A stretch of 64,000 nt of DNA, from the NCBI GenBank assembly GCA_029258915.1, contig JAPDJU010000012.1, positions 1 through 64,000 on the forward strand, given 5' to 3'. A model generated the notes under the pieces. The model did not search any database. It saw nothing but the letters and a program-made list of their open reading frames with translations, and was not told where the DNA came from. The stretch comes from Thermoproteota archaeon. Its GTDB lineage: Archaea > Thermoproteota > Thermoprotei_A > EX4484-217-1. This document shows, one piece after another, positions 15,082-27,213 of the stretch (position 1 is its first letter; every line of letters begins with the position of its first letter). The position numbers and the translations under genes are program-made.

Positions 15082-15582
15082 CTATTGGAGTAAAGTGCTG
15101 AGAACCTTTACTAATATATCTGCTGTTCTTTTAACATCGCTAGTCATGGGAGATCCGAAACTTATATCGCTTACCTGAATACCTAATAAGTACTGTTCAG
15201 CTTTAGGTAACATATACTCTAGGTATCTGCGAAGCATAGAATATGATGGTTTATGAGTTGTAGGGAAAACTACTTCCAGTTCTTCTATTTCCTTTAAAGA
15301 ACCAAAGACCAGGAAACCAGGGTTTAAACCTGCCTTTACGGCGTCTATGAAAACCACCACCTCTGGTCTAGCATTTACAGCTACGCCCAGAAAACTTTCA
15401 GGTGAAAGCCCAGCATCAACAACATTATTTAGCCCTCTTAACCTAAGATTACTAGCAACATATGAGCCAACATAATCATCTCCTCGGAGATCATTACCTA
15501 CACCTATAATGAATACCTTTCTACCTGAAAGAACCTTAACTATGCTATCTTTAACTTCGCTGAAACTTCCTAAAACAAACAT
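15082..15582 (-). CDS. Hydrogenase maturation endopeptidase (HycI/HyaD family)
   Basis: FIIGVGNDLRGDDYVGSYVA; directly follows the hydrogenase genes. Confidence 0.88.
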   Translation of the reverse strand: MFVLGSFSEVKDSIVKVLSGRKVFIIGVGNDLRGDDYVGSYVASNLRLRGLNNVVDAGLSPESFLGVAVNARPEVVVFIDAVKAGLNPGFLVFGSLKEIEELEVVFPTTHKPSYSMLRRYLEYMLPKAEQYLLGIQVSDISFGSPMTSDVKRTADILVKVLSTLLQ

Positions 15583-15621: not shown

Positions 15622-16503
15622 TTATTTTTTGCTTTTTCTCCTGCGTAATGGTGGCGGTAAATCCGGTAGGAATTTTATAGCATCTACTGGACATGCTTCA
15701 TAGCATTGTCCGCAAAAGAGACACTTATTGATATTGTATATTGGTAAAAGTCTTCCACCAATATCTTTCATTGTTATTGCTTCTGTAGGGCAGACCCTAG
15801 CACATAAGGTACATCCAGTACATATGTTTCTATCTATTTGAATAGTTCTATACCTTAGTAAACCTGCTTTCTCCAGCGGAGATTCCGGTATTTTCTCCGG
15901 TATTTTCTCTACTTTCTCAGGGAACTTCACTAATGGTGAAATTGCTTCAGAGGAACAAATTTCAACACATTTATGGCAGAAAACACATAAATCAACATCG
16001 TAAGATGGAATCACCCTACCATCCTTAATAACCATGGTTATCGCGTGAGTTGGGCAAACAGCTGCGCAAAGCTCGCACTCAACACATTTAGAATAATCTA
16101 TCTTCATGTACCTTATCTTTTCTAGACCCGCTAAAACATACGGTGCTATAGGTACTTTAGGTAATCCCTCATACGCAGACTTCTTTGCTGAGGAAAGCTC
16201 AAATTCGGTCGATGAAACTATTGCGTTTGTTGGGCAATTATATATACATTCATAGCAGAAACAGCATCTACTTACATCATACCATGGCACGGATCTTCCA
16301 TCAGTCCATTTAAGCTTAATTGCGAAAGTAGGGCATACGTCTTCACAAACACCGCATTCAACACATCTATTCCATAAAAATACTGGTTTACCCCTAAACC
16401 CTTCAGCTATTACTGGTTTTTCAAAGGGATATTTGTGTGTTGCTGGTTTCTTAAATAAGTAACTAAAAACTTCAGCTATTAGGGAGGGTATTTTCTTACC
16501 CAT
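15622..16503 (-). CDS. Polyferredoxin with six [4Fe-4S] motifs, MbhN-like
   Basis: Six CxxCxxC...CP-type motifs arranged as three tandem 2x[4Fe-4S] units (sixth Cys of one motif followed by S). Confidence 0.92.
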   Translation of the reverse strand: MGKKIPSLIAEVFSYLFKKPATHKYPFEKPVIAEGFRGKPVFLWNRCVECGVCEDVCPTFAIKLKWTDGRSVPWYDVSRCCFCYECIYNCPTNAIVSSTEFELSSAKKSAYEGLPKVPIAPYVLAGLEKIRYMKIDYSKCVECELCAAVCPTHAITMVIKDGRVIPSYDVDLCVFCHKCVEICSSEAISPLVKFPEKVEKIPEKIPESPLEKAGLLRYRTIQIDRNICTGCTLCARVCPTEAITMKDIGGRLLPIYNINKCLFCGQCYEACPVDAIKFLPDLPPPLRRRKSKK

Positions 16504-16506
16504 CCC

Positions 16507-17670
16507 CTACCTCCTCCAATATTTCTTCTTAATTTCACCTATGGTCATGGTTTTTCTTGTTCCCGATTTAGCATCTAAAAGCATTACTGTTGTTCTATCG
16601 GTACATGCGAAACATGGGTCTATGCTTCCTAGGATAACTGGGATATCTGCTACATGGTAGCCCTTGAACATTTCGCAAACTCCAGGTATGTTTGCATATG
16701 TTGGCGTTCTAACCCTGTGCCTCCAAGGAGTTACTCCACCTCTCCATATGGTGTGATGTAGCACTTCTCCCCTAGGAGCTTCAACTCTACCTTCTCCCTT
16801 ACCCTCAATAGTCCTTGGAACTTTAGTACATATTGGGCCTTGAGGTAAGTGGTCTAATGCATACAATATTATGTTTATTAGTTCTAAACATTCATCAACT
16901 CTGACCATGTATCTTGCCCAACTATCTCCTTCCTTATATGTTATGACTTTGAAAGGTATTTCATCATAAGCCTCGTATGGATCAGTATATCTTAGATCTA
17001 TTTTTACTCCAGAACCCCTAATTGTTGGACCTACCGCGCCTAACGCTAGTAGCTTGGATCCACTAATATATCCTACGTCCATAGTTCTAGTGGTGAAAGT
17101 TGGGTCCTCGCTTAAGACCTTTTTATATCTTTCAATTCTCTTGTAAAGCTTAGGCAGCTTATCCTTCATCTTATCAACAAGCGCTGGAGAAATGTCTCTT
17201 GTAACACCTCCAACTCTTACATATGCGGATATTACTCTATTACCTGTAAGTTCCTCAAACAAGCTCATTACTAGTTCTCTGTCTCTCCAAAACAGCATAA
17301 ATAGCGTTTCAAAACCCATTAGCTCTGCTGCAACACCTAGTAAGAGTAAGTGGCTGTGTAACCTATTAAGTTCATGAGCAATTACTCTCAAATACTTCGC
17401 TCTTGGAGGAACTTCAACATCTGCTGCTTGCTCAACTGCTTCGGCAAAACAGAGAGTATGGGCTACATTACAAATACCACAAATTCTTTCAGCAAGATAT
17501 AGTCCTTCAATGAACGTTTTTGTTTCCATAAGCTTCTCTATTCCCCTATGCATATAGCCTATTCTAGGTATAACATCTATAACGGTCTCACCCTCAACTT
17601 TAAAGAGGAACCTTTCTGCTTCATGCAATGCCGGGTGCTGAGGACCTACAATTAAGCTTATTGCTGGCAC
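16507..17670 (-). CDS. [NiFe]-hydrogenase large subunit, group 4 (MbhL/Ech-like)
   Basis: Both Ni-ligand motifs intact: RICGICNVAH and DPCFACTDR. Confidence 0.93.
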   Translation of the reverse strand: MPAISLIVGPQHPALHEAERFLFKVEGETVIDVIPRIGYMHRGIEKLMETKTFIEGLYLAERICGICNVAHTLCFAEAVEQAADVEVPPRAKYLRVIAHELNRLHSHLLLLGVAAELMGFETLFMLFWRDRELVMSLFEELTGNRVISAYVRVGGVTRDISPALVDKMKDKLPKLYKRIERYKKVLSEDPTFTTRTMDVGYISGSKLLALGAVGPTIRGSGVKIDLRYTDPYEAYDEIPFKVITYKEGDSWARYMVRVDECLELINIILYALDHLPQGPICTKVPRTIEGKGEGRVEAPRGEVLHHTIWRGGVTPWRHRVRTPTYANIPGVCEMFKGYHVADIPVILGSIDPCFACTDRTTVMLLDAKSGTRKTMTIGEIKKKYWRR

Positions 17671-17672
17671 TT

Positions 17673-18194
17673 CTACCTCACCTTTTTAATCTTCTTTATC
17701 AGCTTAATCTCCTTTCTAAGAGGATAAATGTTGTCAGGCCATTCTTCGGGAAGAAATACTTTCCCCAAAGCCGGATGCCCTACAAACCTTACGCCAAACA
17801 TTTCATAATTTTCACACTCATATAGGAGTGCCCCGGGTACTATGTCTGTTATGGTTTCAACTTCAGGGTTTGCCCGGGGAATATTCATTTTAAGTGTTAA
17901 ATGTAGTTTAAAATCGTCTTCTGCTAACTGTATCTCATACTGTAACTCAAAATATTCTTTATCAATATAATCCACCGTGTTTATTGTTACTAAATATGAG
18001 GATTCGGCGAATTGGTTCCTAAGCCATTTAATTATCTGCTTATGTGAATTACGTACTATTTTTAACTCGGCACGAGTGGGGGTAAGAACTTTAACGCTTA
18101 ATATCTTATCCTTAAACTCTCTCCTTAGCTCTTCTAAGAACTTGGAAACTTTTTCCGGAACTTTTTTTACCTTACTTTCTACCGCCATTTCCAC
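17673..18194 (-). CDS. NuoC/MbhK-like 30-kDa-type subunit
   Basis: CENYEMFGVRFVGHPALGKVFLPEEWPDNIYPLRKE. Confidence 0.85.
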   Translation of the reverse strand: MEMAVESKVKKVPEKVSKFLEELRREFKDKILSVKVLTPTRAELKIVRNSHKQIIKWLRNQFAESSYLVTINTVDYIDKEYFELQYEIQLAEDDFKLHLTLKMNIPRANPEVETITDIVPGALLYECENYEMFGVRFVGHPALGKVFLPEEWPDNIYPLRKEIKLIKKIKKVR

Positions 18195-18612
18195 CGCCCT
18201 TAATCTTCTTTATCAAAGTAACTATACCGTGAATTATTGCTTCGGGTCTTGGAGGACATCCAGGAATATAAACATCAACAGGGATTACTCTGTCAACTCC
18301 CTCATATACGAAGGGCGATCCTTGAAATACATTACCATTTACTGCACATGTTCCAACGGCAATGACGAATTTTGGCTCAGGCATTTGCTCATAAATTCTC
18401 TTTAACCTTCTAGCTACTTGTTTAGATACTGCACCTGTAACTATCAGTATGTCTACATGTCTAGGAGATGGTTTAAGTAGTATTCCGAAACGTTCAACAT
18501 CATATCTTGGAGTTAATGCTGCTAGAACTTCGATATCGCATCCATTACATCCGGGAGATGGGAAATGTAGAATCCATGGAGATTTTATTCTTGCCCACTG
18601 AACAATTCCCAT
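18172..18612 (-). CDS. [NiFe]-hydrogenase small subunit (MbhJ-like)
   Basis: PGCNGCDIE, GTCAVNGN, PGCPPRPEAI proximal-cluster cysteines. Confidence 0.93.
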   Translation of the reverse strand: MGIVQWARIKSPWILHFPSPGCNGCDIEVLAALTPRYDVERFGILLKPSPRHVDILIVTGAVSKQVARRLKRIYEQMPEPKFVIAVGTCAVNGNVFQGSPFVYEGVDRVIPVDVYIPGCPPRPEAIIHGIVTLIKKIKGGGNGGRK

Positions 18613-18871
18613 AACTCAGCCTCCTCACTGGAAGAGTTTCCTTGTTCATCTAGGTTATTGGGTCTATATTAAATAAGATACTCTATAGTAGAAGTATATA
18701 GATAACATAGGAAGGTAATGAATTAAACCATTTAGGCTAAATAGTAAATTCTTCACATTATCATTGCTGACCTCCTTCATATTCTACTATAAGTTATTTT
18801 TATTTATACATGCTAGGAAAAGGGTTATACGAACTTCAAGTGATGATAAAGACTGGTTAAGGGAAATTCTG

Positions 18872-19156
18872 ATGGCTTTAGAAAATTTCATATCTACGTT
18901 CATAGTCGTGTTACTGCCAGCATTTCTAATATCCTTAAGCTTATACGCTATAAGAGTAATTAAAGGTCCTTCAGTAACCGATATGGTTTTAGCTATTGAC
19001 TGTATAACCTATGATCTATGTTTTCTTATGGGGCTACTTTCGATACTTTTCAAAATAGGCTTCCTAATGGTTGCAGCTTTGGCCTTGGCCTTATGGGCTT
19101 ACGTTTTAGATGTTTACGTAGCTAAGTATTTAGAAGCAAGAGAGGTTGGAGATTAA
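18872..19156 (+). CDS. MrpF/MnhF-like antiporter subunit
   Basis: VIKGPSVTDMVLAIDCITYDL; ATG 18872 with upstream AAGGGA preferred over track start 18764. Confidence 0.85.
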   Translation: MALENFISTFIVVLLPAFLISLSLYAIRVIKGPSVTDMVLAIDCITYDLCFLMGLLSILFKIGFLMVAALALALWAYVLDVYVAKYLEAREVGD

Positions 19157-19554
19157 TGTTCATATTTCCTGAGCTAAACCCATTAGAAGAGATAGCTTTA
19201 ATCATAGGGATAATCTTAACGTTAATTGGTGTATTCTGCGATATTGTTGGATCTATCGGTATGGTTAGGTTTCCTAATTTCTTTGTTAGGCTTCATGCTG
19301 CAACAGTAGGAACAATAGGAGGAGCAGTTTACCCACTGTTTGGCATTACACTTATGTCTCTTGCTCTAAACTACTTAGGTGTGATGAGATACTTCATAGC
19401 CACTGGAGCTTTTCTTACAGCTATAGCTATTGTCTTAACAGCTCCTGTGGGTTCCCACGCTCTTGCTAGAGCAGCTCATAGATCCAAAACTGTTCCCGTA
19501 GAACCTAAGGTTTGTGATTTTCTAAAAGAAGATGAGAGGCTGATTGAAGAATGA
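19156..19554 (+). CDS. MrpG/MnhG-like antiporter subunit
   Basis: GSIGMVRFPNFFVRLHAATVGTIGG. Confidence 0.9.
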   Translation: MFIFPELNPLEEIALIIGIILTLIGVFCDIVGSIGMVRFPNFFVRLHAATVGTIGGAVYPLFGITLMSLALNYLGVMRYFIATGAFLTAIAIVLTAPVGSHALARAAHRSKTVPVEPKVCDFLKEDERLIEE

Positions 19555-19814
19555 TTGAAGCAACGTTAATTGCTGAAATACTCTTAGCTTTTTCACTTAC
19601 GCTAGCCTTAATCTTCGCCTACCTTGCTATTAGGGAAAGAGATTTAATTAAGGCAATAGTGTTCTCAGCATTACAGTCTGTTGCCTTCGCCTACGCTTAC
19701 TACCTGTTGTTTGCTCCAGACATAGTGTTAGCATACATCGCCGTTGGTGTTGGTATTTATTCGATACTGTTAATTTATGGTGTAAGTAAAACCGAAAGGT
19801 ATGAAGAGGTGTAA
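19551..19814 (+). CDS. MbhD-like (DUF4040) subunit
   Basis: DLIKAIVFSALQSVAFAYAYYLLFAPDIVLAYIAVGVG. Confidence 0.85.
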   Translation: MIEATLIAEILLAFSLTLALIFAYLAIRERDLIKAIVFSALQSVAFAYAYYLLFAPDIVLAYIAVGVGIYSILLIYGVSKTERYEEV

Positions 19815-19816
19815 TT

Positions 19817-20644
19817 ATGGTTATTAGTAAGGTAAGACCTCGTAGTGAAATAATTATAGGTTTAGGCGTAGCATTACTGCTTGTACTTACATTATTTGCT
19901 GTTATTGCTGGAGCTACAGGGTTTACACCTAAAGAGGATATTAGGCCTCTAGCTAAGTTCTATCTCTATTATGCAATTAACTGGTATGAGAAGAAATTCT
20001 GGGCAGCAAGTCCTGAAGCAGTAAACTCTATGGTCTGGGACTATAGAGGTTACGATACACTGTACGAAACCTCAGTATTCTTCCTAGCCATTATAGGCGC
20101 TATAGCTGTTTTTAGAATACCCGGCGTTAAAGACGTTTTCTCCAAGGGAATTTTAAGCGGTAGAGGCTTATCACTTATAGTTAAAACAATAACTAAACTT
20201 GTAATAGCCTTTGTACTTATAGTTTCAATAGCAATAGCTGTTCATGGAAACTTAACACCTGGAGGAGGCTTCCAGGCCGGATCAGCAATATCAATAGCGA
20301 CCCTTTTAGCAATCGCAGCTTTCTCAAGAATATTCTTAGAAGAAAGAAAAATTACAACAAAACTTATGCTGCCTATCAGAGTTTTAGGAGTTTTAGGTAT
20401 AGGATTACTTGCCCTAGGTCCAGCATTAATTGCTTTAAGCGGTATAATGTCCTTTGTTATTCAAAACCAACCTAAACCATGGGCTGACTGGGGATTTATA
20501 CCTGGAGTAGGACCATTCTGGCTCTCTGGAAACCAATTCTTCTACAACTTCTTTGAATTCGTAGCTGTAGGAGCCGGATTTACTGTTATTTACTTGATAT
20601 TCTCAATACCTGAACTAATTTACAAGAGGGTGTTGAAAAAATGA
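19817..20644 (+). CDS. MbhE/F - MrpB-like subunit
   Basis: VHGNLTPGGGFQAGSAISIATLLAIAA; N-terminal MbhE-like region. Confidence 0.87.
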   Translation: MVISKVRPRSEIIIGLGVALLLVLTLFAVIAGATGFTPKEDIRPLAKFYLYYAINWYEKKFWAASPEAVNSMVWDYRGYDTLYETSVFFLAIIGAIAVFRIPGVKDVFSKGILSGRGLSLIVKTITKLVIAFVLIVSIAIAVHGNLTPGGGFQAGSAISIATLLAIAAFSRIFLEERKITTKLMLPIRVLGVLGIGLLALGPALIALSGIMSFVIQNQPKPWADWGFIPGVGPFWLSGNQFFYNFFEFVAVGAGFTVIYLIFSIPELIYKRVLKK

Positions 20645-21036
20645 CAAGCATAGTATCCCAGGCTCTGTGGATTTATTTCTACATAACGCTAATAGGCTTA
20701 ATTGCAATTGCCGTTTACGGTATTGTTGTCAGACCTAATTTGTTAAAGAAGATAATTGCTTTATCTATTTTAGGAGATACTGCAAACACGTTTATAATAT
20801 TCTTAGGCTTTAGAAGAGGAGGAGCTGCTGTACCTATAATTCCAACTATTAAACCCACACTAGAAGAGTTATTGTGGTTTAAAGAAACAGCTGTTGACCC
20901 GTTACCTCAATGCTTAGTTATAACTGCAATCGTTATCAACATGTCTGTTACAGCATTTCTAATAGCTTTAGCCATCCAGCTTTACAGGCTTTACGGAACT
21001 CTTGATGTTAGAAAAGCAGTTAGGCTAAGAGGGTGA
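20641..21036 (+). CDS. MrpC/NuoK-like subunit
   Basis: GIVVRPNLLKKIIALSILGDTANTFIIFLG, DPLPQCLVITAIVIN. Confidence 0.88.
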   Translation: MTSIVSQALWIYFYITLIGLIAIAVYGIVVRPNLLKKIIALSILGDTANTFIIFLGFRRGGAAVPIIPTIKPTLEELLWFKETAVDPLPQCLVITAIVINMSVTAFLIALAIQLYRLYGTLDVRKAVRLRG

Positions 21037-21042
21037 AGAACA

Positions 21043-21558
21043 GTGGGTGTTTTAGAAAGAACACTTAAAATAGTTGCCGTAGCAGTAATGTTGTTTGCAG
21101 TTTTCATAATAGCCTCGGCCAGTGTGGCACCGCAAGACATAATTTACGGTATCATATTCTCCATTGCTGTTGCAGTTGTCGTTTCAGAACTTCTAATAGC
21201 CAAGCATACTAAACCATATGATATTAAGAGATGGTTTTGGACAATAGCTTATACTTTCTACTACTTCATAGTTGCAGAGTATAAGGCTCACTCAGATGTT
21301 ATAATGAGAATACTTCATCCTAAAATGCCTATTAAACCAGGTATTGTTAGAGTTCCTTTCCATGTTAATACAGACTATGCTATAGTTACAATTGCGAATT
21401 CAATAACAAATACTCCTGGTACAGTTGTCGTAGATCTGGATACAAAGAGAAAATACTTTTATGTCCACTGGATTAACGTTAAAGCACCTGATGAAAAAAC
21501 AACTTTTGAAAATATTTCTAAGATGTTTGAATATTTTGCTAAAAGAATATTTGACTAG
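21043..21558 (+). CDS. MrpE/MnhE-like subunit
   Basis: Two N-terminal TM helices; NSITNTPGTVVVDLD. Confidence 0.87.
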   Translation: MGVLERTLKIVAVAVMLFAVFIIASASVAPQDIIYGIIFSIAVAVVVSELLIAKHTKPYDIKRWFWTIAYTFYYFIVAEYKAHSDVIMRILHPKMPIKPGIVRVPFHVNTDYAIVTIANSITNTPGTVVVDLDTKRKYFYVHWINVKAPDEKTTFENISKMFEYFAKRIFD

Positions 21559-21568
21559 GTGATGATGG

Positions 21569-23176
21569 ATGGAAATATATCCTCCACTACCTCCAATAAT
21601 GATACACTCATTAGCTCTAGCACCAGTAACAGCTATAGTATCTGCTTTCGCAATGCCACTAATAGGTTTAACAATTAAGAATAGGAAAGTATGGGATGCT
21701 TTTGCATTAACGATATCAACAATTGTTTTCATACTTACAGGAATAGGCTATGCTACGGTTCGGTATTTAGGTAAGCCGTTTGTATACTTGCTTGGAGGAT
21801 GGCCACCACCTGTAGGTATAGTTTACGAGGTTGATGAGTTTGCTGCACTCTTAGGCCTTGTTTCAGCCTTCATTATATGGTTAGTGGTAATTTACGGTGT
21901 AAAATACTTTGATTCAAACGAGGATGGCATGGAATGGTACTATACGATGCTTTTAGGATTAGAAGCAGGTGTTCTAGGGTGCATATATACTGGCGACGTA
22001 TTCAACGTATTCGTACTTTTTGAAGTACTTTCAATAACATCCTACGGTTTAGTAGCCTTTTGGAATAGAAGAGGAGAATGTATTGAAGCTGCTATAAAGT
22101 ATTCGCTTATAGGTGCTTTAGCTACAACAATATACTTCCTAGCTGTAACATTCATTTACGCTTCTCTTGGAACATTAAACATGGCGGATATTGCAGCTAA
22201 AATAAGAGGTTTATTCTTCCCGGTAACAGGTGAACCTTATGGAAGCATAGCTTTAGGTGTTGGCTTATTCTTAGCATTGTCTATATGGGCTTTTACCGTT
22301 GAAGCAGGTGTAGCACCGAATCACTTTAGAGTTCTTGACGCATATCAGGTTTCACCATCAACAGTGGCTGCATTGCTTTCAGCAGTGGCTGCTAATGTAG
22401 GATTCTATCTATTAGCAAGGTATTTGATAACTCTTCTAAGTGGAGCTAGAGCAGTTGAAACAATAGTTAATGCCGGATTATTAATAGTACTTATCATGGG
22501 TTTAGTTTCAATAATTGTAGGGTCGTTCTTAATGATTGTTCAGTCTGATGTTAATAGAATTTTAGCTTACAGTTCAGTATTAAACTATGGTTATGTGTGT
22601 TTAGCTATAGGATTAGCTACGCCTTTAGGTATTATAGCAGCGCTATTTCACATGATAAACCATGCTGTAGCTAAAACGCTTATATTCTTAACAGCAGGAG
22701 TTTACGTTAAAGCTTCTGGAACAAGGCGTCTGGACGGAATGGAGGGTGTTGGAAGGTATGCTCCTATTACATCAGCTCTAATGGTTATAGCAGCATTAGC
22801 TTTAGCAGGTGTTCCACCTTTCAACGGTTTTGTAAGTAAGCTAATACTCTATGAAGCCCTTCTAGAAGTTAACCTAGCCCCGCTAGTTATAATAATAGTT
22901 TTATCAAGTGCACTATCACTCTTAGGCTATTTGAAAATAATTTACCATGCATACACTAAACCCCCGATGAAAGACTATGGTAAAGTTGAACCTCCAAAGG
23001 CAATGCTTTGGCCTATGATTATTCTTGCGGCTCTATGTATAATCTTAGGTGTCGCATCCCCCTGGATATACGATATGTTCATAGAGCCTGCAGCACATAC
23101 TATTTTTGAAACCGATAAGTTTATAGAAGTAGCTTACGAATTCGCTGAAAAACTACTCATAGGTGTTAGGATATGA
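21569..23176 (+). CDS. MrpD/NuoN-like proton-translocating antiporter subunit
   Basis: GLEAGVLGCIYTGDVFNVFVLFEVLSI, FHMINHAVAKTLIFLTAG. Confidence 0.92.
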   Translation: MEIYPPLPPIMIHSLALAPVTAIVSAFAMPLIGLTIKNRKVWDAFALTISTIVFILTGIGYATVRYLGKPFVYLLGGWPPPVGIVYEVDEFAALLGLVSAFIIWLVVIYGVKYFDSNEDGMEWYYTMLLGLEAGVLGCIYTGDVFNVFVLFEVLSITSYGLVAFWNRRGECIEAAIKYSLIGALATTIYFLAVTFIYASLGTLNMADIAAKIRGLFFPVTGEPYGSIALGVGLFLALSIWAFTVEAGVAPNHFRVLDAYQVSPSTVAALLSAVAANVGFYLLARYLITLLSGARAVETIVNAGLLIVLIMGLVSIIVGSFLMIVQSDVNRILAYSSVLNYGYVCLAIGLATPLGIIAALFHMINHAVAKTLIFLTAGVYVKASGTRRLDGMEGVGRYAPITSALMVIAALALAGVPPFNGFVSKLILYEALLEVNLAPLVIIIVLSSALSLLGYLKIIYHAYTKPPMKDYGKVEPPKAMLWPMIILAALCIILGVASPWIYDMFIEPAAHTIFETDKFIEVAYEFAEKLLIGVRI

Positions 23177-23520
23177 GCCTGCTTATGGTTGTTTTAGAAA
23201 CCGCAGTTTCAATGTTTATAGTAACATTGTTAGCCTATGGACTCTACCTTTACTCAGTAAAGGTAACTAAAAGTTTTTCCAGGAAAACTAGGGAGAAAGT
23301 TCTTATCTATGCGTGTGGCGAAGACATTACCGAAAAAGAGGCACTTTTAGCAGATAGGCATTTATTTACAACGATCTGGAATGAAGTTTTCAAGCCACTA
23401 TATGATTCTCTTAGAGGGAAAGTACATACGGGAATACTTAATGACTGGTTTTTCTGGATGTTCCTAGCTTTAATCATAGCTTACACTATAATAATTGTGT
23501 TAGGTGGTGTAAGTGGCTAA
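23173..23520 (+). CDS. MbhI-like small membrane subunit
   Basis: Two TM helices around KVLIYACGEDITEK; between MrpD-like and NuoH-like genes. Confidence 0.72.
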   Translation: MSLLMVVLETAVSMFIVTLLAYGLYLYSVKVTKSFSRKTREKVLIYACGEDITEKEALLADRHLFTTIWNEVFKPLYDSLRGKVHTGILNDWFFWMFLALIIAYTIIIVLGGVSG

Positions 23521-24502
23521 CGGAATATTTGAAACGCTAATGCTGGTAGGAGAGACGTTAATCTATCCTGGAGCAGTATTCTCTTTCATAGTTGCAATAT
23601 TTACTCAGTGGTTTAGAAGAAAAGCTTACGCTAGAATGCAGAATAGAATGGGTCCAACATATACAGGTCTTGCAGGAACACTACAGCCTTTCGCAGACTA
23701 CGTTAAATTATTCTTTAAAGAGGACATAGTTATTATTAGAGGCTACGCTAAATTACCAGCATTCCTGCTCGCATTAGCAATAGGTGCCCTAATAGCGATA
23801 CTTTTAATGTTACCCATATCCCCGTATAGTGTTTATGCACCGTACGATATTATAGTAGCAGCATATTTGCTAATATGGCCAACACTAACCCTTGCCGCTC
23901 TGGGATTCCTAACACCAAGCCCCTATGGTGCTTTAGGTTCTTCAAGACTACTTACATTAACAATAGCATATGAAGTAGCTTTCCTAATTTCAATACTAAC
24001 ACCCGTAGTTCTAGCTAATAGAATACTTGGAGCACAATACTCACTATACCTCTCATCAATTTACAGTTGGCTACTATGGACAAACCCCGTATTAATACCG
24101 TTAATTATAATATCACTACTTACCGCATTAATTTCATTGCAATGTAAACTACTAGAGAAGCCATTCGATATTCCAGAAGCAGAACAAGAAATAGTTGCAG
24201 GGCCTTTCACAGAGTATTCAGGGCCAAAATTAGCATTCATAATATTCATTCACGATATCGAACAATACGTAAACTCGCTGATCATAGTATTCTTATTCCT
24301 AGGTGGTGTAGCACCCTTCGTGGAAGGCCCATTATGGGCTCAAATACTAGTAGTTGCTATTAAGTATATTGTTGTAGTTCTTGTTCTAACATGGATTAAA
24401 GCTATGGTAGCAAGGTTTAGAGTAGATCAAGCAATAAAAATGCTATGGAAATACATAGTACCTTTATCACTATTCGCATTAATAGTTTCCACAGTAATAT
24501 AG
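23513..24502 (+). CDS. NuoH/MbhM-like membrane anchor subunit
   Basis: RMQNRMGPTYTGLAGTLQPFADYVKLFFKE, PFDIPEAEQEIVAGPFTEYSG. Confidence 0.93.
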   Translation: MANGIFETLMLVGETLIYPGAVFSFIVAIFTQWFRRKAYARMQNRMGPTYTGLAGTLQPFADYVKLFFKEDIVIIRGYAKLPAFLLALAIGALIAILLMLPISPYSVYAPYDIIVAAYLLIWPTLTLAALGFLTPSPYGALGSSRLLTLTIAYEVAFLISILTPVVLANRILGAQYSLYLSSIYSWLLWTNPVLIPLIIISLLTALISLQCKLLEKPFDIPEAEQEIVAGPFTEYSGPKLAFIIFIHDIEQYVNSLIIVFLFLGGVAPFVEGPLWAQILVVAIKYIVVVLVLTWIKAMVARFRVDQAIKMLWKYIVPLSLFALIVSTVI

Positions 24503-24678
24503 AGGTGTCAGCTTAATACACAGTTTAAATATCTATTCACTTCCTATCCTTCCTCAAACCTCTACATAGCGATGGAATTTCTTGTAATTAAAATAGAGGT
24601 ATATGGTGTTTTATTGAAGGCAAAGTTATTTAAACACCGTTAAATATTTTAAATACTGTCAAAGATAGGTGAGTATTT

Positions 24679-25176
24679 ATGGAGATAGAGGATTTACTTA
24701 AATACCTTGTTGAACATTTTAATGCTAAAATCAGTATCGAGAAAGATAGGAACTTTGTATTAGCTAGAGTTGATAAATACTCCTACGTTAATGTAGCAGA
24801 GTTTTTGTTCAAAGAAGGATTTAGAAGATTGCTAACAGTTTCAGCTATCGATTGGCTTTCGAGAAACGTTATTGAAATATACTTTATCACGTATAACCAT
24901 GTTATGAACGTCTATGTTAAAGTTTCAACAGAAATACCTAGAGATTTCCCGGAAATACCTTCTTTATCAAGTATGTGGGAAAATGCTGCTATGCATGAAA
25001 GAGAAGTGTGGGAGCTTTTCGGTGTTTCGTTTATAGGGAATAAGATGCTTAAGCCATTATTCCTAGAAAACTGGAAAGGTCCTCCACCTTTCAGAAAGGG
25101 TTTTGACTGGAGAGAGTATGTCGTTAAGGAATACGGTTTAAAATATCCTCCAGTACCTAAAACTGTTTATCAATAA
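24679..25176 (+). CDS. Second NuoC-like 30-kDa-type subunit
   Basis: HEREVWELFGVSFIGNKMLKPLFLENWKGPPPFRKGFDWREYV. Confidence 0.88.
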   Translation: MEIEDLLKYLVEHFNAKISIEKDRNFVLARVDKYSYVNVAEFLFKEGFRRLLTVSAIDWLSRNVIEIYFITYNHVMNVYVKVSTEIPRDFPEIPSLSSMWENAAMHEREVWELFGVSFIGNKMLKPLFLENWKGPPPFRKGFDWREYVVKEYGLKYPPVPKTVYQ

Positions 25177-25203: not shown

Positions 25204-27213
25204 GTGAAAATAAGTAATATATTTAAACCTTTCAAAACTGTAGGTAAGTTTCTAGTGGAAAAACCTTTGACATTCCACTTCCCACCTGAATCCCCAGTAT
25301 TTACTGAAAGATTTAGGGGAAGACACATATATCATCCTGAGCTTTGTATAGAGTGCAAACTTTGCGGTATAGTATGTCCGAATAATGCCATAGATTTCCT
25401 ATTTGAAAAGGATGAAAAAGGTTTAGTTCATTTTAGAACTCAAGTAGACTATGCTAAATGCTGCTTCTGCGGGCTATGCGAAGACGTATGTCCCACTAAA
25501 GCACTAGAAATGACTAATTTCCCATTTCTTGTAGCTATGGATAAAAAAGAGCTATATTATAGCTGGAAAAAACTTTCTGAAAAACCCTCACTCACCCTTC
25601 CCTCAATAAAAGAAAGAAAAGGGCTAATACCATGGGCTAGAGCTAGAAGCTTCTGGATAGTAAACTACTTTACGGGATGCTGTTTCATAGAAGCTGTACC
25701 CTGGGTTGCAAGTAGCTTCGACATGGAGAGATTTGGTCTCTTAGCTACAGCATCGCCGAGACATTCTGATGTCCTTCTTATAGGAGGCTATGTTACACCT
25801 AAAACTCTTAAAAGAATAATCAGAATATATTCTCAAATGCCAAAGCCAAAGTTCGTTTTAGTTCTTGGAAATTGCCCCATGACCGGTGGAACATATTGGG
25901 ACAGCTACAATACTATCAAGGAACTTGATAAATACATTCCAGTAGATCTCTGGATAGCTGGATGTCCTCCAAGAGTTGAAAACGTAGGATACGCCATATT
26001 CTTAGCTATATGGGCTGTTCAGCATGGATATACTGGTAAGGAGGAATACGTAAATACTGAGCATGGAAAATACGCTTTGCCCTATGTAGTACCTAAAATA
26101 AATAAGGACTATAACATCGTAGAGTTTGGTCCACAACACCCTGCAAGCGGGAATTTCAACATACTTCTTAAGCTTAAAGGGGAGCGCGTAGTAGAGGCAA
26201 CGCCCAATGTCGGATACTTACATAGAGGGTTTGAGAAGCTTATGGAGTATAGAACATGGTGTCAAAACATAATGATAGTTCAAAGAGTTTGTGTACTAGA
26301 TGGTGCATCATATGAACTAGCATACGTTGGTGCAGTAGAGAAGATTGCCGGTTTAGAAGTTCCAGAAAGAGCTAAATATTTACGTGTTATTCAAGCAGAG
26401 CTTAGTAGAATTCAAAGCCACTTACTCAACCTAGGACTATTAGCTGCATCTGCAGGATTCGATACAATAACCAGAATAACGTGGGGCGATAGGGACAAAA
26501 TACTTTACCCACTAGAATACATGACCAGAGGAAGAGTATATCAAATATACAATATTCCAGGCGGTGTAAGATACGATATCCCACTAGATTTCGTAGATAA
26601 GGCTTTTGAAGTAATAAAGTACATGGAGAAGAGACTTAAAATATACGATGACCTACTATTTAACAACCAAGTATTTATAGATAGAACAAAGAACATAGGT
26701 AAATTACCTAAAGAAATGGCTATAGAGCTTGATGTAACAGGCCCGAACATGAGAGCTTCAGGCATAGATTTTGATGTTCGAAGAAATGTTCCTTATGAAG
26801 CATATAAAGACGTTGATTTTAAAGTTCAAGTTCTACAAGACGGAGACGTATACTCTAGAGCCCTATGTAGAAGAAGAGAAATAGAGGAGAGCCTTCACAT
26901 AATAAAGCAAGCTATAGGTAAATTGCCTAAAGGTCCTATAGCCGAGAGGAAAATGTCTAGAGGAGGATATTTCTCATTTATGTCTTCTATACCTACTGGA
27001 GAAGCAATACATTGTGTCGAAAGCGCTAGAGGAGAACTCTGCTTCCACATAGTGAGTACAGGCGGGGTTAAGCCTTACAGAGTTAAAATTAGAGGGCCAA
27101 CATTTGACACTATACTTGTAGCGTTACCTAAATTATTGAAAGGCGTTCAAGTGGCTGACGTACCAGTAATATATTGGAGCTTAGATAATTGCCCGGCAGA
27201 TCATGACAGGTAA
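25204..27213 (+). CDS. NuoI-NuoB-NuoD-like fusion protein (ferredoxin + small + large subunit, Mbx/complex-I-like)
   Basis: Uninterrupted 669-aa ORF: 2x[4Fe-4S], then TGCCFIE...GNCPMTG...AGCPPR, then PQHPASGN...QRVCVLD...DNCPADHDR. Confidence 0.93.
   Translation: MKISNIFKPFKTVGKFLVEKPLTFHFPPESPVFTERFRGRHIYHPELCIECKLCGIVCPNNAIDFLFEKDEKGLVHFRTQVDYAKCCFCGLCEDVCPTKALEMTNFPFLVAMDKKELYYSWKKLSEKPSLTLPSIKERKGLIPWARARSFWIVNYFTGCCFIEAVPWVASSFDMERFGLLATASPRHSDVLLIGGYVTPKTLKRIIRIYSQMPKPKFVLVLGNCPMTGGTYWDSYNTIKELDKYIPVDLWIAGCPPRVENVGYAIFLAIWAVQHGYTGKEEYVNTEHGKYALPYVVPKINKDYNIVEFGPQHPASGNFNILLKLKGERVVEATPNVGYLHRGFEKLMEYRTWCQNIMIVQRVCVLDGASYELAYVGAVEKIAGLEVPERAKYLRVIQAELSRIQSHLLNLGLLAASAGFDTITRITWGDRDKILYPLEYMTRGRVYQIYNIPGGVRYDIPLDFVDKAFEVIKYMEKRLKIYDDLLFNNQVFIDRTKNIGKLPKEMAIELDVTGPNMRASGIDFDVRRNVPYEAYKDVDFKVQVLQDGDVYSRALCRRREIEESLHIIKQAIGKLPKGPIAERKMSRGGYFSFMSSIPTGEAIHCVESARGELCFHIVSTGGVKPYRVKIRGPTFDTILVALPKLLKGVQVADVPVIYWSLDNCPADHDR

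Follow-up and report, generated by a model that had tools for sequence, protein, structure and literature searches.

On the prevailing view, complex I was built from separate modules, namely an ion pump and a hydrogenase-like arm. Subunits homologous to those of the arm described below are found in MBH and other group 4 [NiFe] hydrogenases (MbhJKLN), as well as in MBS, the membrane-bound sulfane sulfur reductase of Pyrococcus furiosus (MbsN/J/L, PDB 6u8y), and in the MBX of Staphylothermus. In MBS, whose genes are separate and come with their own MbsM, catalysis is performed by a site-differentiated proximal cluster held by three cysteines and exposing an open iron, while two remnant NiFe cysteines (MbsL C85/C385) are retained and are dispensable (PMC7684303). 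As for fusions of Nuo subunits, a survey of complex I in prokaryotes (2025), from which Candidatus genomes were excluded, records only the CD and BCD types (PMC12361115).

Here, I show that a further type of fusion, joining I, B and D in one chain with C encoded separately, forms a rare yet conserved archaeal family. The window, i.e. the whole stretch of 64,000 nucleotides that was analysed, belongs to the genome of a Thermoproteota archaeon (G000; 1.6 Mb, 99.7% complete) and encodes on its plus strand (25204..27213) a fused NuoI-NuoB-NuoD-like protein of 669 aa in the order MbsN-MbsJ-MbsL. That the three subunits share a single uninterrupted frame, C lying separately upstream, had been proposed in the original prediction and is borne out by the ORF listing (669 open codons from a GTG start codon, with AGAGG upstream of it) and by Pfam/NCBIfam matches to residues ~12-125 (NuoI/Fer4 dicluster), ~137-275 (NuoB/Oxidored_q6) and ~300-669 (NuoD/Complex1_49kDa). 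The joins fall at residues ~105-140 and 276-305, close to codons 125 and 300 where they had been expected. The N domain (NuoI/MbsN-like; 25204..25578, +) matches Fer4 twice as well as TIGR01971 NuoI, and carries two [4Fe-4S] motifs (C48/51/54/58 and C86/89/92/96). The J domain (NuoB/MbsJ-like; 25612..26058, +), identified by PF01058 and NF005012, has predicted N2-type cluster ligands at C159 and C160, which align as a tandem pair, and at C224 and C254. The L domain (NuoD/MbsL-like; 26092..27210, +), identified by PF00346 and NF004739, shows RVCVLD and DNCPAD and no NiFe motif. Of the structures in the PDB, P. furiosus MBS gives the closest matches, its subunits L (6u8y_L) and J (6u8y_J) pairing with the L and J domains. 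GC3 is alike over all three domains. AlphaFold2 models of ten fusion sequences had a mean pLDDT of 51.5 and a pTM of 0.46, values too low for cluster distances, docking, cavity geometry or fold search. Directly upstream lies the separate NuoC/MbsK-like (30-kDa) partner gene (24679..25176, +; PF00329), which holds the same position in the orthologous loci read (neighbour tables) and precedes each of the fusion frames (659-671 aa) confirmed by the contig scan.

Besides the 669-aa protein, 17 full-length orthologues were recovered (659-687 aa, 59-66% identical), the hosts in the scan of genome contigs being Thermoproteota, Bathyarchaeota/Hecatellales, Baldr-, Heimdall- and Lokiarchaeota. Intact copies are present in 3 of 398 sampled Thermoproteota genomes, with one more, broken, in G217, and in 11 of 227 sampled Asgard genomes, with two more truncated or interrupted (G570 and G483); other archaeal phyla, and Bacteria, were covered only by an exact-peptide contig scan, which misses divergent members. 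The architecture is thus unusual, as predicted, and the idea that it is unique to G000 is rejected by the orthologues found in the contig scan and in the sampled phylum sets. Across the 18 full-length fusions, 197 of the 669 positions never vary, and every one of the 12 predicted Fe-S ligands (C48, 51, 54, 58, 86, 89, 92, 96, 159, 160, 224 and 254) is among them; both linkers are nearly constant in length, and invariant columns flank both joins. A contig of 'Desulfurococcales archaeon ex4484_217_1', apparently of the same genus as G000, spans both joins before ending (375 residues, ~95% identical). Some copies are irregular: the gene of G483 (L146, 646-2658) is interrupted by an in-frame stop, and in G217 (L105, 5492-6375) the frames are split near the first join and at the contig end, both cases reflecting either decay or assembly error. 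A Baldrarchaeota MAG has, on another contig (L017, 526-957), a second partial copy of the C-terminal part of the fusion.

A tree built from 47 D domains places the fusions in a single clade (support 100/100), for which reason the fusion probably arose once, a single origin being the simplest reading; its spread over phyla could have been vertical or horizontal. This clade is nested in a non-hydrogenase clade (100/100), where it is sister to MBS/MBX together with unfused orphan arms of Asgard archaea (92/89), and it falls outside the NuoD/Fpo-like sequences, which form a clade of their own (100/99). The fusion is therefore closer to MBS/MBX than to Nuo: of the view that it is an unusual Nuo-like fusion, the rare I-B-D architecture stands, and what does not is its confinement to one genome and its placement with Nuo.

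The active-site signature agrees with this position only in part. The hydrogenase pattern CxxC...CxxC is cut down in the L domain to CVLD...CPAD, leaving one Cys per pair, and D366 and D666 are invariant; in the fusion of G565 both remnant cysteines are gone together. MBS and MBX share with the fusion the two remnant cysteines, the acidic residues replacing the other two, a shortened small-subunit loop and the lack of the quinone ligands H38/Y87 of complex I. In the alignment to Nqo4, the L domain of the fusion has an altered stretch without His in place of H38 and Val364 in place of Y87. The small-subunit loop of every fusion, however, reads TGCCFIE or VGCCFIE, i.e. the tandem cysteines of the complex I type (C159-C160) which, along with C224 and C254, take the place of a three-Cys cluster; no such pair is found in the alignment of P. 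furiosus MBS, Staphylothermus MBX or the Asgard unfused arms. The active site may accordingly be described as a hybrid, combining a tandem-Cys NuoB domain with a D domain that retains two of the NiFe cysteines. The mechanism of MBS should not be assumed for it, because the tandem GCC stands where MBS has its three-Cys catalytic site, nor should a quinone reduction of the complex I type.

Other features set the fusion apart from each of its relatives. With complex I and Fpo-like enzymes it has in common the same four domains and the tandem-Cys N2 ligands, while its D domain branches with MBS; the known Nuo fusions are CD or BCD, and no NuoEFG genes were seen adjoining the fusion. MBX clusters are ordered J-K-L-N, whereas the fusion loci have K and then N-J-L, in a single chain rather than in separate genes as in MBS. 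Unlike the group 4 hydrogenases, one of which presumably provides the host membrane arm (see below), the fusion has its subunits joined and no maturation extension, its L domain ending in ...DHDR.

In the window, the fusion follows a membrane arm of the Mrp/MBH type. The plus-strand order is MrpF-G-MbhD-MrpB-C-E, MbhH, MbhI-like, NuoH, a 176-bp gap, NuoC and the fusion. A Na+/H+ antiporter cassette of MrpF, MrpG, MbhD, MrpB/MbhEF, MrpC and MrpE-type genes (18764..21558, +; ORFs named by inspection, with order and similarity as in the S. marinus MBH cluster) is followed by an MrpD/MbhH-type antiporter subunit (21569..23176, +; PF00361, NF006240), by a small membrane protein, MbhI-like by position (23173..23520, +; no Pfam match, weak similarity and the same position in S. 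marinus), and by the NuoH/MbhM membrane anchor (23513..24502, +; PF00146), the sole NuoH of the locus. The gap between NuoH and NuoC (24503..24678, +) contains AT-rich TATA-like elements conserved in an alignment with the congeneric genome; as a putative promoter, it would fit a separate transcription of NuoC and the fusion. Divergently to the cassette lies an MBH-type peripheral arm (J-K-L-N; 15622..18612, -) that lacks its own NuoH, has full NiFe motifs (RICGIC, DPCFAC) and bears the C-terminal extension on its L subunit. The neighbouring gene for a HycI-type maturation protease (15082..15582, -; ORF named by inspection), whose homologues adjoin hydrogenase clusters in G370 and G249, is consistent with this divergent arm being a hydrogenase. 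Its NuoI/MbhN-like subunit (15622-16503, -; 293 aa) has six 4Fe-4S motifs in three tandem dicluster repeats, the homologue in G370 having only 130 aa. Another contig of G000 (C2; L109, L110) encodes two further group 4 hydrogenase clusters, one of them followed by a second Mrp cassette.

The clusters of S. marinus have been described (PMC2678158), and its MBH cluster runs J-K-L-N-F-G-D-B-C-E-H-I-M in one direction with no genes like NuoC or the fusion after M. As this MBH cluster is otherwise the same as that of the window, the membrane arm of the window most likely belongs to the hydrogenase, and NuoC with the fusion has the look of an addition to it.

Elsewhere, NuoC and the fusion stand alone in most loci, without membrane genes, and in the neighbour tables no constant neighbour other than NuoC was found for the orphan pair. 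Gene copy numbers follow the same line. Of the 20 fusion genomes that could be assessed, 18 have NuoD = NuoH + 1 in counts of PF00346 versus PF00146, the three best assemblies showing 4:3 (G000), 2:1 (G370) and 2:1 (G249). These counts are inexact, several genomes being incomplete drafts; G401 and G402 were left out for that reason, and the copies of G400, G407, G570 and G217 are fragmentary. In 30 fusion-free Thermoproteota genomes chosen by the author as controls, NuoD equals NuoH in 30/30 and is in excess in 0/30; the difference from the fusion genomes (Fisher p about 1e-11, kinship ignored) is only descriptive, because related genomes are not independent. NuoH is present in every fusion genome except one 0.6-Mb draft; across the Asgard set it is present in 140 of 227 genomes and absent from 87, and it occurs in all 13 of those with a fusion. 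The two exceptions to the NuoD excess are the Lokiarchaea G404 and G405, in which the fusion stands at the end of an operon NuoA-H-J-K-L-M/N-C, paired as in complex I with NuoA/H/J/K/L/M-type genes; the Lokiarchaeal G502 has the same type of operon up to the contig end. This synteny is evidence that the fusion arm works with a NuoH membrane arm. Along the same line, W144, R148, S149 and W151 of the J domain show no variation, whether the fusion is an orphan or linked to an operon; they belong to the WAR..S.W segment, which in NuoB-type small subunits faces the membrane anchor, and their conservation is in line with docking on NuoH.

A comparable case is that of the unfused orphan J-K-L-N arms of Asgard archaea (G416, G423, G437 and others), which are likewise non-hydrogenase, lack their own NuoH and are accompanied by a NuoD:NuoH ratio of 2:1 in 7/7 genomes. 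They differ from the fusion in having four genes in J-K-L-N order, a single, MBS-like Cys (NSC-GF) at the N2 position and no WAR motif. The NuoH-free loci with such arms are L135, L136 and L137 (G416, G423 and G437), and L128-L134.

As the fusion is usually without a membrane anchor of its own, it suggests the borrowing of the ion-pumping part of another complex. The fusion is best explained as the catalytic peripheral arm of an enzyme of the complex I superfamily, made as one chain and forming a two-protein arm with NuoC. Electrons would pass from ferredoxin, the putative donor, to the two clusters of the N domain, from these to the J-domain cluster, which is of the tandem-Cys N2 type, and from there to a probably hydrophobic acceptor in the J/L cavity. 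Where it has no NuoH of its own, as in most genomes, the arm most likely docks on the NuoH and ion-pumping membrane part of a group 4 hydrogenase from the same genome, where it would be an alternative to the hydrogenase arm; in the window, the Mrp-MbhH-I-M arm would be shared between NuoC plus fusion and the divergent JKLN arm. That NuoC and the fusion are in most genomes a non-hydrogenase arm docking in this way is, in my judgement, a proposition with about as much to be said for it as against it. The fuller proposal of exchangeable catalytic arms, in which NuoC and the fused I-B-D plug into the membrane arm of a co-resident energy-converting hydrogenase and two redox reactions share a single ion pump, the active site being intermediate between complex I and sulfane reductase, is put forward tentatively. 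Fusing I, B and D would add a fixed stoichiometry.

Other readings have to be weighed against the docking arm. NuoC and the fusion might be a soluble oxidoreductase without any membrane arm, moving electrons, for example, between ferredoxin, formate/F420 enzymes and a disulfide or sulfur acceptor. Apart from the lack of membrane genes at the orphan loci, it could draw on two genomes, G582 and G583, in which MvhD-FdhA-FrhB-like genes precede the pair and share its orientation, a neighbourhood that suggests a link to formate or F420 metabolism. Such genes adjoin the pair in three genomes only (L140, L141 and L143, of the Asgard G582, G583 and G565). Orphan arms could be soluble, or sit on an anchor that PF00146 does not recognise. 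The invariance of the WAR..S.W segment, the operon link in Lokiarchaea and the near-universal presence of NuoH in fusion genomes all speak against a soluble enzyme, which appears rather unlikely. Conversely, the fusion might be the arm of a standard MBS/Fpo-like enzyme that owns the NuoH and Mrp arm of the window, the divergent JKLN being extra or unrelated. The direct order NuoH-NuoC-fusion and the complete operon of Lokiarchaea would favour such a dedicated complex, yet in S. marinus the same Mrp-H-I-M arm occurs together with JKLN but without a fusion, the 176-bp gap with its conserved TATA-like elements separates NuoH from NuoC, and the pair is solitary in most other genomes; this reading is an improbable one.

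Two further candidates fare far worse. A [NiFe]-hydrogenase with three fused subunits, which the homology to group 4 hydrogenase subunits might bring to mind, is contradicted by the sequence motifs (one Cys per CxxC pair, none in G565, and no cleavable C-terminal extension) and is rejected as highly improbable. An assembly or frame error joining three adjacent genes, which the original prediction had named among the findings that would refute it, has a negligible probability: the fusion is found in 18 full-length sequences from many assemblies with conserved columns on either side of both joins, and the artefact is refuted by independent assemblies. Because the joins recur in the independent congeneric contig and in 17 orthologues, chance and frame error are excluded and sequencing reads are not needed.

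To sum up, a docking, non-hydrogenase arm is the preferred reading, and the occurrence of C plus I-B-D as an extra arm, usually without its own NuoH, is a more informative feature than the fusion alone. No description of the I-B-D fusion was found in the open-licence literature, and it is absent from the searched passages of papers on Asgard and Bathyarchaeal group 4 complexes (PMC11291895, PMC7886697, PMC9723677). The parts are all of known kinds; what is new, as far as checked, is their I-B-D fusion, together with the hybrid site and the pattern of orphan arms. Reconstructions of Asgard energy metabolism can easily mistake a NuoB/NuoD copy that lacks NuoH for a second complex I or hydrogenase. 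Because the hybrid site joins complex I cluster ligation to sulfane-reductase-like remnant cysteines, the order of changes leading from proton through sulfur to quinone reduction can be tested, and a family of anchor-less arms, spread over TACK as well as Asgard archaea, would illustrate the modularity of complex I in organisms living today.
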